NCBI GenBank assembly: GCA_021731425.1
Contig: JAKFXJ010000004.1
Location: 1-14,396, forward strand
From: Limnohabitans sp.
GTDB taxonomy: Bacteria; Pseudomonadota; Gammaproteobacteria; Burkholderiales; Burkholderiaceae_C
Direction of reading: 5' to 3'
Length of the DNA: 14,396 bases
Position numbers and translations under genes: made by a program. Positions 3,178-8,849 of this stretch are shown here, in pieces; position 1 is the first letter of the stretch; each line of letters starts with the position of its first letter. The notes beneath the pieces were generated by a model. It ran no database searches, had not been told where the DNA came from, and worked only from the letters and a program-made list of their open reading frames with translations.

Positions 3178-3253
3178 TTTTGATTCACCTGAGTTTGCCA
3201 ATTTCACCACCCGGGCTGAATGTACGGAGACCCGAAATATGGCACATTATTGG
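3178..3253 (-). pseudogene. tRNA-Leu remnant: 5' half and promoter region (direct repeat copy B)
   Basis: Positions 3178-3216 reproduce the tRNA-Leu gene from the anticodon loop to its 5' end with 35 of 39 bases identical to 630-668. The acceptor strand GCCCGGG and the D-arm core GGTGAAATTGG are intact. The 3' half (variable arm, T arm, CCA) is absent, so it cannot make a tRNA. The promoter-side block up to 3253, including a CATATT -10-like hexamer at 3236-3241, also aligns with copy A. The remnant ends one base before the cysM ATG. It marks one edge of the 2.5-kb hydrolase cassette and may be an attachment-site scar or the residue of a tandem duplication. Confidence 0.85.
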
Positions 3254-3254
3254 C

Positions 3255-4157
3255 ATGATTTATCCAACCATTGAAGATGCAATTGGCAAAACACCTTTGG
3301 TGGCTTTGCAGCGCTTGGGGGCTGCCGACATGGCGGCTCGAAACAATGTGATCTTGGGCAAGCTCGAGGGCAACAACCCGGCGGGCTCCGTCAAAGATCG
3401 CCCCGCCTTGTCGATGATCCGCCGGGCCGAAGAGCGCGGCGAGATCAAGCCGGGCGACACACTGATTGAGGCGACATCCGGCAACACCGGCATTGCGCTG
3501 GCCATGGCGGCCGCCATCAAGGGCTACCGCATGGTCTTGATCATGCCCGAGGACTTGTCGATTGAACGCGCCCAAACCATGAAAGCGTTTGGCGCCGAGC
3601 TGATCCTCACGCCCAAAAGCGGCGGCATGGAATACGCCCGTGACTTGGCCGACAACATGGCCTCGCAAGGCAAGGGCCGCATCTTGGACCAGTTTGCCAA
3701 CGCCGACAACCCGCGCATCCATTACGAAACCACCGGCCCCGAAATTTGGGAGCAAACCGGCGGCAAGGTCACCCACTTTGTGAGTGCCATGGGCACCACC
3801 GGCACCATCACGGGCGTGTCGCGGTTCTTGAAAGAAAAGAACCCGGCCATCCGCATCATTGGTGCCCAGCCCAGCGAGGGCTCGCGCATCCCAGGCATCC
3901 GCAAATGGCCTGAGGAATACCTGCCCAAAATTTACGACCCGAGCCAGGTGGACGAGCTGATTTACGTGAGCCAAAACGACGCCGAGGAAACCTGCCGCCA
4001 GATGGCTCGGACCGAAGGCATCTTTGCCGGTATCTCGGCAGCCGGTGCTTGCTGGGTGGCCCAGCAAGTGGCCAAAACGGCGCAAAACGCCACCATTGTG
4101 TTCATCGTCTGCGATCGCGGTGACCGTTATTTGTCCACGGGCGTGTTCCCCGCCTGA
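3255..4157 (+). CDS. cysM: Cysteine synthase B (CysM type)
   Basis: A cytoplasmic PLP enzyme making cysteine from O-acetylserine and sulfide; CysM enzymes can also use thiosulfate. The start is ATG 3255, giving 300 residues beginning MIYPTIEDAIGKTPLV, the usual CysM N-terminus. An open extension upstream to 3156 only translates the tRNA remnant. The PLP lysine is K47 in NNPAGSVK47DRPA. The substrate loop EATSGNTG, the phosphate-binding GTTGTITG and the CysM-type end CDRGDRYLSTGVF are all present. No good Shine-Dalgarno precedes the ATG; the leader is the old tRNA promoter region. The next gene starts 11 bases after the stop. The operon contains a TusA-family protein, which fits sulfur assimilation. 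Confidence 0.95.
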   Translation: MIYPTIEDAIGKTPLVALQRLGAADMAARNNVILGKLEGNNPAGSVKDRPALSMIRRAEERGEIKPGDTLIEATSGNTGIALAMAAAIKGYRMVLIMPEDLSIERAQTMKAFGAELILTPKSGGMEYARDLADNMASQGKGRILDQFANADNPRIHYETTGPEIWEQTGGKVTHFVSAMGTTGTITGVSRFLKEKNPAIRIIGAQPSEGSRIPGIRKWPEEYLPKIYDPSQVDELIYVSQNDAEETCRQMARTEGIFAGISAAGACWVAQQVAKTAQNATIVFIVCDRGDRYLSTGVFPA

Positions 4158-5864: not shown

Positions 5865-8849
5865 TCAGCCCAAGCGTTGCAGTTGCTGGCGGATTTTGTC
5901 GAGTGTGGCCCCAAAGTCGGCCACGCGCTTTTTGGTTTCGTCGAGCACGGCTTGCGGGGCCTTGGCCACAAAGGCCTCATTGCCCAGTTTGGCATTGGCC
6001 TTGGTGATTTCACCTTCGAGGCGGGCCACTTCCTTGCCCAAGCGGATTTTCTCTGCGGCCGCATCCACTTCGATGAACAGGCACAAACGCGCTTCACCCA
6101 CCACGGCCACAGGCGCGGCCTGAGCGGCCGCGATCCACTCAGCCTCGGTGTCAAAGACTTTCACTTCGCTCAGCTTGGCCAGCGATTGCAGCACGGGCGC
6201 TGCGCTTTGCATGAAGGCGGTGTCGCCCAGAACATACAGGGGCATGCGGGTCGAGGGGGAGACGTTCATCTCGCCGCGCAAGTTCCGGCAAGCGTCCACC
6301 AGGGTTTTGAGCTTGGCCACATGGGCTTCGGCGGCTGGGTCGATGCGCTCGGGCTGGCTTACAGGGTAGGCCGAGATGCTGACCGACTCGCCCGAACGGC
6401 CCGCGACCACCGACACTTTTTGCCAAAGCTCTTCGGTGATGAAGGGGATGATGGGGTGCGCCAAACGCATGATGGTCTCGAGCGTGCGGATCAAGGTGCG
6501 GCGGGTGGCGCGTTGTTGTGCGTCGTTGCCGGTGTTGATCTGCACCTTGGCGATTTCGAGGTACCAGTCGCAGAAATCGTTCCACACAAAGTCATAGATT
6601 GTGTTGGCTACGTTGTCCAGGCGGTACTCGGCAAAGCCTTTGGCCACCTCGGCCTCGACGCGTTGCAGCTGCGAGCTGATCCAGCGGTCTGCTTGGCTGA
6701 AGGCCAAGTAGCCATGCACCGGGCCGCCTACCTCGCATTCGGCTTTGGTGTGTTCTTTCAGGCCGCAGTCTTGGCCTTCACAGTTCATCAGCACAAAGCG
6801 GGTGGCGTTCCAGAGCTTGTTGCAGAAGTTGCGGTAACCCTCGCAGCGCTTGGAGTCGAAGTTGATGCTGCGGCCCAGCGTGGCCAGCGACGCAAACGTG
6901 AAGCGCAGGGCGTCGGCGCCATAGGCCGGAATGCCTTCGGGGAATTCTTTTTCGGTTTGTTTTCGGACCTTGGGCGCGGTCTCGGGTTTGCGCAGGCCTT
7001 GGGTGCGTTTGTCAAGCAGCGGCTCGAGCGTGATGCCGTCGATCAGGTCAACCGGGTCGAGCACGTTGCCTTCAGACTTGCTCATCTTCTTGCCTTGGGC
7101 ATCGAGCACCAGGCCGTGGATGTAGACGTGTTTGAAGGGCACTTTGCCGGTGAAGTGGATGGTCATCATGATCATCCGGGCGACCCAGAAGAAGATGATG
7201 TCGTAGCCGGTCACCAAAACGGAAGACGGCAGGTAGAGGTCGTAGTCTGTTCCGCTGGCGAGCGTGCCGGACTCGGCCTTGCTCCCACTCGCTTCGCTCG
7301 CAATGTCGCTGCGCCCGTTTCCGGCACGCTCGCCAGCTGCGTTGTGGGGCCAACCCATTGTTGAGAAGGGGACTAGGGCGCTGGAGTACCAAGTGTCCAG
7401 CACGTCTTCGTCGCGCTTGAGCGTTTTGCCGGGGGCTTGGGCCTGTGCTTCGGCTTCGTTGCGGGCCACATACACCTTGCCGTCTTCGTCGTACCAGGCG
7501 GGAATCTGGTGGCCCCACCAGAGTTGGCGCGAGATGCACCAGTCGGTGATGTTGTTCATCCACTGGTTGTAGGTGTTGACCCAGTTCTCGGGCACAAAGC
7601 TCACTTGGCCAGACTGCACCGCGTCGATGGCTTTTTGGGCAATGCTCTTTCCGGTGGCATCGCCTTGGCCCACTTGGTTCATGGCCACGAACCACTGGTC
7701 GGTCAACATGGGCTCGATCACCTGGCCAGTGCGGGCGCAGCGGGGCACCATGAGTTTGTGTTTTTTCACCTCGACCAAAGCGCCTGCAGCTTCGAGGTCG
7801 GCCACCACGGCCTTGCGGGCCACAAAGCGGTCGAGGCCTTGGTATTTCTCGGGGGCGTTGCTGTTGATGGTTGCGTCCAAGTTCAAGACACAGATCATCT
7901 CCAGCTTGTGGCGCTGGCCGACTTGGTAGTCGTTGGTGTCGTGGGCGGGCGTGACCTTGACCACGCCTGTGCCGAAGTCTTTGTCCACGTAATCGTCGGC
8001 GATCACGGGGATGGTGCGGCCGCAAAGTGGCAGATTGACCTGTTGGCCAATCAGGTGTTTGTAGCGCTCGTCTTCGGGGTGCACCATCACGGCCACGTCG
8101 CCCAGCAGGGTTTCGGGGCGGGTGGTGGCGACAGTCACACTGCCGGACCCGTCCACCAAGTCGTAACGGATGTGCCACATCGAGCCGTCTTCTTCGGCGC
8201 TTTCCACTTCCAGGTCAGACACCGCGCTTTGCAGCACCGGGTCCCAGTTCACCAAGCGTTTGCCACGGTAAATCAGGCCTTGTTCATACAGCTGCACAAA
8301 GGTCTCGGTCACGGTTTTGGACAGCTTGGGGTCCATCGTGAAGTATTCGCGGCTCCAGTCCACGCTGTCGCCCATGCGGCGCATCTGGCTGGTGATGGTG
8401 CTGCCCGATTCCTCTTTCCACTCCCAGACCTTGCTCACAAAGTTCTTGCGGGCTTCGGCAGGCGTGGGGCCCATGTCGTGGCGGCTGATGCCCTTGGCTT
8501 GCAGCTGCCGCTCCACAACGATTTGGGTGGCAATGCCCGCGTGGTCAGTGCCCGGAATCCAGGCCGTGTTGAAACCCATCATTCGGTGGTAGCGGGTCAA
8601 CGAGTCCATGATGGTCTGGTTGAACGCGTGGCCCATGTGCAGCGTGCCCGTCACGTTGGGTGGTGGCAGTTGGATGGCAAAAGCCGGTGCGCCGTCTTTG
8701 GGCGCCTGAGTGCCTCTAAAACCGGCCACGCCGTAGCCGCGTTTTTCCCACTCGGGGCCCCAATGGGCTTCCAGCGCAGCGGGTTCAAACGATTTGGACA
8801 GGCTCTCAAGGCCGGGCTGTGTGACCGGGGTGGCGGGTGCGTTGCTCAT
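5865..8849 (-). CDS. valS: Valyl-tRNA synthetase with a 28-residue in-frame insertion
   Basis: This class I synthetase charges tRNA-Val. The protein has 994 residues against about 950 in E. coli. The HIGH motif is H71-M-G-H74 in [16 protein letters not shown], and KMSKS is at 588-592 ([12 protein letters not shown]). The editing (CP1) domain lies between them, the anticodon-binding domain follows, and the C-terminus from about residue 925 is the charged coiled coil usual for ValRS. Residues 505-532 (AGERAGN...GTLAS) have low complexity and are encoded exactly by an inverted-repeat element at 7254-7337. They fall between MGWPHNA and [23 protein letters not shown], two conserved catalytic-domain segments that would join cleanly without them. 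No strong Shine-Dalgarno is visible. The frame is intact and all motifs are present, so the enzyme is presumably active. Confidence 0.97.
7254..7337. repeat. 84-bp palindromic element inserted in frame in valS
   Basis: Perfect 18-bp inverted repeats (7254-7271 GCTGGCGAGCGTGCCGGA and 7320-7337) flank a 48-bp core containing the CTCGCTTCGCTCGC motif. The total length is 84 bp, exactly 28 codons (505-532 of ValRS), so the reading frame is preserved. The encoded peptide is rich in Ala, Gly, Ser and Glu and falls in a loop. The design resembles protein-coding palindromic elements such as the Rickettsia RPEs, though I cannot link it to a named family. No transposase is present, so any mobility would depend on other factors. 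Confidence 0.85.

Follow-up and report, generated by a model that had tools for sequence, protein, structure and literature searches.

An 84-bp hairpin lying in frame within valS is likely to be a resident copy of a small, non-autonomous palindromic repeat family of Limnohabitans and some other Comamonadaceae. It was analysed in the window, i.e. the whole stretch of 14,396 nucleotides of a Limnohabitans contig, and its features are collected in Table 1. The members of the family share a loop and a neck, whereas their stems differ from site to site and remain paired.

Table 1. Positions of the valS hairpin, its parts and its host gene in the window
Feature	Position	Strand	Evidence
84-bp hairpin element, loop type A, in frame in valS codons 505-532	7254..7337	-	R1 hairpin-model match, 75 bits
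5' stem arm (gene sense), 23 nt, outer 18 perfect	7315..7337	-	inverted-repeat search
3' stem arm (gene sense), 23 nt, outer 18 perfect	7254..7276	-	inverted-repeat search
Apical loop region, alignment columns 31-55, conserved in family	7283..7307	-	35 aligned elements
GCGAAGC loop core	7291..7297	-	both G-C pairs kept in 35/35 elements
valS, valine--tRNA ligase, host gene, 994 aa	5865..8849	-	

The valS hairpin and its place in the enzyme

The initial annotation had described a palindrome with perfect 18-bp arms in valS, and our analysis confirms it: the perfect inverted repeats occupy positions 7254-7271 and 7320-7337, and over 23 bp the arms are 91% complementary. In 200 dinucleotide shuffles of the window, no perfect 18-bp inverted repeat with a spacer of at most 80 was obtained, the longest shuffled one reaching 15. 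Folding of the gene-sense strand with 10-nt flanks gave −59.1 kcal/mol (z = −7.4) and folding of the opposite strand −51.3 kcal/mol (z = −4.1), values equalled in none of 200 shuffles in either case. As had also been claimed, the element, whose length is divisible by three, corresponds to exactly 28 codons of ValRS (505-532) and leaves the valS frame without a stop. Its apical loop region is a few bases off the family consensus.

The insert was described as separating two conserved segments of the enzyme, and the alignment with the ValRS of T. thermophilus (1gax) bears this out, residues 473 and 475 of the latter aligning with residues 504 and 535 of ours. Residues 505-532 are missing from the T. 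thermophilus enzyme and, as foreseen, from many relatives, some of them close; the closest named ValRS is that of Limnohabitans parvus (96%). In a partly redundant set of 135 sequences, the interlude between two conserved ValRS motifs measures 24-35 aa when it is empty and 53-110 aa when it holds the element, and three further interludes (44, 47 and 58 aa) hold other palindromes. The AlphaFold model of ValRS, with a mean pLDDT of 52.1 and values below 50 for residues 479-605, is too poor to place the loop. The 28 additional residues probably do little for the enzyme.

A FastTree phylogeny of 108 ValRS was computed with the interlude removed and with duplicates and sequences shorter than 900 aa dropped. 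The insert is present in 43 of these sequences, 4 of which have no loop-pattern match, and 18 gain or loss changes are needed, 12 of them being forced by starred branches. According to this tree, the valS element has been gained or lost at least 12 times. Judged by its single position across many genera, the valS copy is old and not a fresh insertion. Some lineages have two inverted copies inside valS, one of them read from the complementary strand. Such double copies were observed in L046, L134, L172 and L245, where the two loops are mutually complementary, and the predicted fold of the L046 double copy is one very long hairpin. At the same place, the ValRS of L332 and L311 has another hairpin, which codes for VRAEPVEA- or VRPEPFEG-like peptides (RPEPVEG-like), and that of L318 a hairpin encoding SLPPEGA, which in L048 and L252 adjoins the element. 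As read from these genes, the turn after residue 504 is a landing pad which three types of palindromes have entered.

A dispersed family with a constant loop

The hairpin model R1 matched 15 places in the host genome, an assembly of 405 contigs that is 82% complete, and 22 in a relative (G317), the highest number among relatives. Thirteen of the host copies were inspected, namely 12 intergenic ones and the valS copy. In a set of 60 genomes, 26 showed matches, our own included; they fall in two genera, one of which is represented by a single weak hit, and the reversed control of the 21-base loop pattern gave no match in any of the 60. With the stricter filters used for the family- and class-wide model searches, 54 of 299 genomes of the host's family matched, a number that is an upper bound since hits of about 64-67 nt in some of them may be another palindrome (similar model hits were seen in G444 and L288, and L288 was kept out of later counts). 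Class-wide, 3 of 369 genomes matched: our own, one family member and one with a weak short hit. The exact 27-base loop was found in 62 stretches of named genomes, in a search which may omit records very close to the window's own; 28 of them are titled Limnohabitans and the remaining titles are Comamonadaceae, Rhodoferax, Ramlibacter, Comamonas, Burkholderiaceae, Burkholderiales and beta-proteobacteria.

The initial annotation had also predicted that the 84-mer and its arms would be repeated as such, which does not hold, as it is the loop and neck that recur. No second full-length copy of the 84-mer was found in the host genome, and the arms used as probes gave only matches with three mismatches elsewhere in this genome (20 against 14 for the reversed control). 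These probes fail because the stems differ between sites; in the weak partial hits of the host genome, the central part recurs with a different stem each time. Among the 299 family genomes, our own included, 18 matched the 84-mer at E ≤1e-3. Full-length copies occur only in valS (4 outside our own genome), the stronger partial matches are also in valS, and weaker ones fall in uvrA and other places. A 15-base loop pattern allowing two mismatches was noisy (23 hits against 9 in the control) and was replaced by the longer loop and the model. A phage or plasmid vector was discarded after the loop queries, which gave neither an exact type A loop in viral contigs nor a plasmid match covering 80% of either query.

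Multiple copies, some intergenic and some in frame, had been expected, and copies having the same loop are of both kinds. In-frame copies were found in at least five gene families (valS, uvrA, DUF3025, MmeI-type and radical-SAM), in several frames and in both orientations. Three congeneric species (L052, L053 and L060) have in uvrA an insert that is read in another frame as QRHSERSEEEQ, and UvrA residues 490-523 have one counterpart residue in the solved UvrA 2r6f; two of the three uvrA places are also among the listed hairpin-model hits. The element is carried by a DUF3025 gene (L255, assigned by Pfam) and, at about the same place, by L159 and L140, which are DUF3025-like by eye, in the same orientation in L159 and in the opposite one in L140. 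It is also carried by the MmeI-type methyltransferases L263, whose Pfam scores are low, and L268, and by a radical SAM protein (L260, assigned by Pfam), presumably of the YgiQ type. Two other element-bearing proteins, L150 and L179, look like further methyltransferases, by appearance alone. An ordinary ValRS loop with a chance symmetry would agree with the insert standing at the same residue in many relatives, but it has virtually no probability given the shuffles, the presence of the same loop at unrelated sites and the lack of the insert in close relatives, the dispersed copies refuting it. The case named beforehand as contrary, an insert slowly diverging in all related ValRS without other copies, was not what was seen.

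The family follows a common plan, with a near-constant apical loop and neck, a stem of about 29 bp and about 84-86 bp overall. From the fetched loci, 129 loop matches were taken (at most 4 substitutions and enough flank), of which 114 with at least 16 of the 23 outer pairs were kept and 15 dropped. Those kept comprise 39 copies in valS and 75 elsewhere, the latter forming ten flank clusters, four of them single-copy. The frame was set by hand (23 pairs in the outer stem and six in the inner one, with one unpaired base between them that is mostly A) and only the loop spacing was free, which in part predetermines the length of 84-86 bp. All 39 valS copies measure 84 bp; of the 75 others, 42 measure 84, 32 measure 85 and 1 measures 86. 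The constant 84 bp in valS argues little for frame selection, since the valS copies are kin. The model hits (n=69) measure 77-91 nt, and the 35 chosen elements give a gap-free alignment. The outermost position is paired in 87% of the 75 copies outside valS and in 95% of the 39 valS copies, against 36% and 13%, respectively, one position outside the edge; the outer boundary is sharp, and real despite the hand-set frame.

The model also detected a second loop type (B), GATGTGGCAAAGCGAAGCGCCTCTGA, whose stems of about 30 bp are often perfect. Types A and B have in common GCGAAGC, a sequence known as an exceptionally stable DNA mini-hairpin, whose two G-C pairs are kept in 70 and 71 of the 71 model-fitted matches and whose middle A is variable in some copies. 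The consensus of either loop type is free of stops in five of the six frames.

Maintenance of the stem pairing

In the alignment of 35 elements, 90.0% of the cells are paired and both sides change in 27 of 32 pairs, with a covariation score of 0.719 against 0.174 in shuffled (500 shuffles) and at most 0.130 in slid alignments. The 71 model-fitted matches give 94.2% of paired cells and a covariation of 0.858, in an alignment biased towards the structure. At the argG site, 8 of 15 elements have G-C at column 11 and the other 7 have T-A. When different sites are compared, a median of 18 of the 46 outer stem bases are identical, and the best of 4,753 pairs reaches 36. The stems of the murB and coaBC/pyrG sites are identical at 36 of 46 bases, a likeness that is possibly a trace of dispersal. 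As far as these alignments reach, pairing persists in stems that diverge from one site to the next and from orthologue to orthologue.

One alternative is a structured RNA of the host, such as a 3' end stabiliser, a processing site or a terminator, inherited vertically and present in a few genes by accident. Such an RNA would agree with the intergenic sites next to argG/murB, mutL, coaBC/pyrG and pyrC, which are orthologous across many species (we take these gene names from the first residues of the proteins), with the 35 copies within 110 bp of a gene 3' end and with the valS copies, in which the loop strand is in gene sense in 36 of 39. However, 26 of these 35 copies have the loop strand antisense to the gene, both orientations occur within genes, and Rfam gave only tRNA families above the gathering cut-off in six sources. 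Moreover, 13 of 70 hits lie between divergent genes, besides 31 co-directional, 18 convergent, 5 in genes and 3 undecided. These 70 are the 71 matches minus one weak short hit, and their contexts were read in chosen regions around hits in six genomes with our own gene caller; among the five in-gene hits, L298 and L302 are probably spurious frames and the others are the window's valS and L307 (valS). A terminator or 3'-end element as the whole story was rejected on the divergent contexts and on the loop strand being mostly opposite to the adjoining gene, and a host structured RNA is on balance rather unlikely. At L115 (1840-2079), between mutL and a transporter gene, a 120-bp unit that includes one hairpin stands as two tandem copies (84%), and one of these has a 3' arm that has lost its match.

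The mismatches of the stems are asymmetric between strands. On the loop strand, G·T exceeds A·C by 134:40 in type A (n=77), 52:9 in type B (n=37) and 42:19 in valS (n=24), in counts of related copies which are not independent events, and G·T prevails in 48, 24 and 16 of the elements, respectively, against 8, 3 and 4 in which A·C does. The arms were placed by Watson-Crick pairs only and elements with fewer than 20 such pairs were dropped; the valS filter is crude, and the type A set may hold some valS copies. With arms placed by all pairs, a placement which favours G·T, the ratios are 77:7 in valS and 93:36 elsewhere. By site, the excess is stronger beside argG (18:4) and mutL (18:3 and 12:1) and weaker at murB (12:8), ABC/pyrC (14:9) and coaBC/pyrG (6:4). 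Such an excess is what RNA pairing predicts and it favours, to that extent, the host structured RNA; the sign of the mismatches nevertheless fits a hairpin of loop-strand RNA and one of loop-strand ssDNA alike. Apparently, what is preserved is the hairpin of a single strand.

The pairing could otherwise be kept by mutation only, through template switching from arm to arm with no selection. Among nearest orthologues, double changes that swap the strand order (27) are about as frequent as those that keep it (29, with 15 of other kinds), so that G·U intermediates alone are insufficient, in agreement with template switching. As the only process, however, it would leave G·T and A·C in equal numbers, against the ratios above and against the single changes, which set a standard pair against G·U in 90 cases and against A·C in 30 (other, 96). 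It also leaves the conserved loop unaccounted for, and is on these grounds very unlikely.

Spread of the family and relation to known palindromes

If the valS hairpin is a resident copy of a repeat family, its members would spread by mobilisation in trans, the structure recognised being the loop and the one-strand hairpin. Coding copies would survive only where 28 extra residues are tolerated, which the open frames of the loop would help, and the ValRS turn would be such a tolerated landing site, shared with the two other palindrome types. After insertion, selection on the one-strand hairpin, correction of one arm by the other through template switching, or the two together may keep the stem paired. 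The terms selfish and mobile express what we infer, since the analysis brought up neither a clean empty site nor a target duplication nor a mobilising enzyme. In 9 valS pairs, several of them badly aligned, neither a target duplication, which together with a matching transposase marks a MITE, nor a clean boundary between empty and occupied states was detected, and an inverted target duplication as the source of the stem was unseen in the same pairs, whose boundaries are highly diverged. No recent transposition was seen among the stems compared between sites, which are unlike apart from the murB and coaBC/pyrG pair. The orthology of many sites across species counts against the repeat family, as slow vertical inheritance fits them too.

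An improbable variant is that the loop-plus-neck of the single-stranded hairpin alone is the replicating unit, copying or template-switch repair rewriting the stem. If this were true, hairpins structurally alike and unrelated in sequence would spread through intergenic DNA and protein-coding genes, and a mobile element would be identified by its shape and loop, not by its ends.

The REP sequences with GTAG or CGTC ends measure 20-40 bp, with stems of 5-13 bp, in the description given by part of PMC3733652. Like the present family, they are palindromes that often form opposite-facing pairs close to the ends of genes and that sometimes lie within genes, including uvrA (PMC3733652, same part). 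Here, 16 of 21 neighbouring pairs at most 400 bp apart are in opposite, outward orientation, and GYAG stands at the 5' foot of 34 of 75 type A copies outside valS and of 25 of 39 valS copies. An unusual branch of the GTAG-type family moved by RAYT is nevertheless extremely improbable. GYAG, the only end motif scored, occurs in only 3 of 32 type B copies, and the elements, with about 84-86 bp and long stems, are far larger and have no constant GTAG/CGTC end as those of that source do. Unlike the GTAG REP families that flank a RAYT gene, no element was found within about 2 kb of the Y1_Tnp (RAYT-like) gene at 7 of 7 loci. This gene exists with and without elements across genomes, and a separate palindrome, TTTAATTGGG, accompanies it in 3 of 3 loci scanned. 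RAYT as the mobiliser is on these three counts unsupported, and the search, which covered Y1_Tnp as the only transposase family, gave no mobilising enzyme.

Other repeats were encountered. The Y1_Tnp neighbourhood of Limnohabitans has its own TTTAATTGGGATC/GACCCCAATTAAA palindrome (L397 2364-2390, L399 2398-2424 and L400 2374-2400), and L019 and L020, on our own contig C21, hold a separate repeat family of CATTGCGAGGAGCGAAGCGAC-like palindromes. The window itself contains an 84-nt direct repeat (630-713 and 3178-3261, 77% identical) which overlaps a minus-strand tRNA match (587-668); its second copy, close to where a gene starts, may be what is left of a tRNA.

The initial annotation had likened the element to the selfish palindromic elements of Rickettsia (RPEs), the copies of which are alike over the whole element. 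RPEs are small repeats forming long hairpins, intergenic and in frame in 19 reading frames (Ogata 2000 via Delihas, in the part of PMC2229807 devoted to them). The repeated hairpin described here likewise has intergenic and in-frame intragenic copies, and this part of the comparison stands, the selfish character being a matter of interpretation. The likeness fails for size and for whole-copy similarity: RPEs have 105-146 bp and 12 contiguous end pairs (same part of PMC2229807), whereas our family has about 84-86 bp, pairing that ends at the edge and stems of about 29 bp, conserves the loop and neck only (median of 18 of 46 stem bases between sites) and belongs to Betaproteobacteria. Repetitive hairpin-forming elements of sponge mitochondria are also dispersed and sometimes in genes, but with conserved stems and substituted loops, according to part of PMC2800124, whereas here the loop is conserved and the stems vary. 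In-frame palindromes as a kind are already in print, as parts of PMC2229807 and PMC3733652 attest; our searches of open-licence papers turned up nothing recognised as this palindrome family.

With the valS hairpin, in-frame palindromic insertions would gain a new family, found in Betaproteobacteria that are free-living and reaching the core enzymes ValRS and UvrA. Some forty sequences of the ValRS tree carry the element at a single codon and form a natural series in which the pace of its gain, its loss and its paired stem changes becomes measurable, and the strand-asymmetric mismatches make the identity of the hairpin molecule testable. The ValRS turn, with its three palindrome types, would show in nature where an insertion is tolerated.
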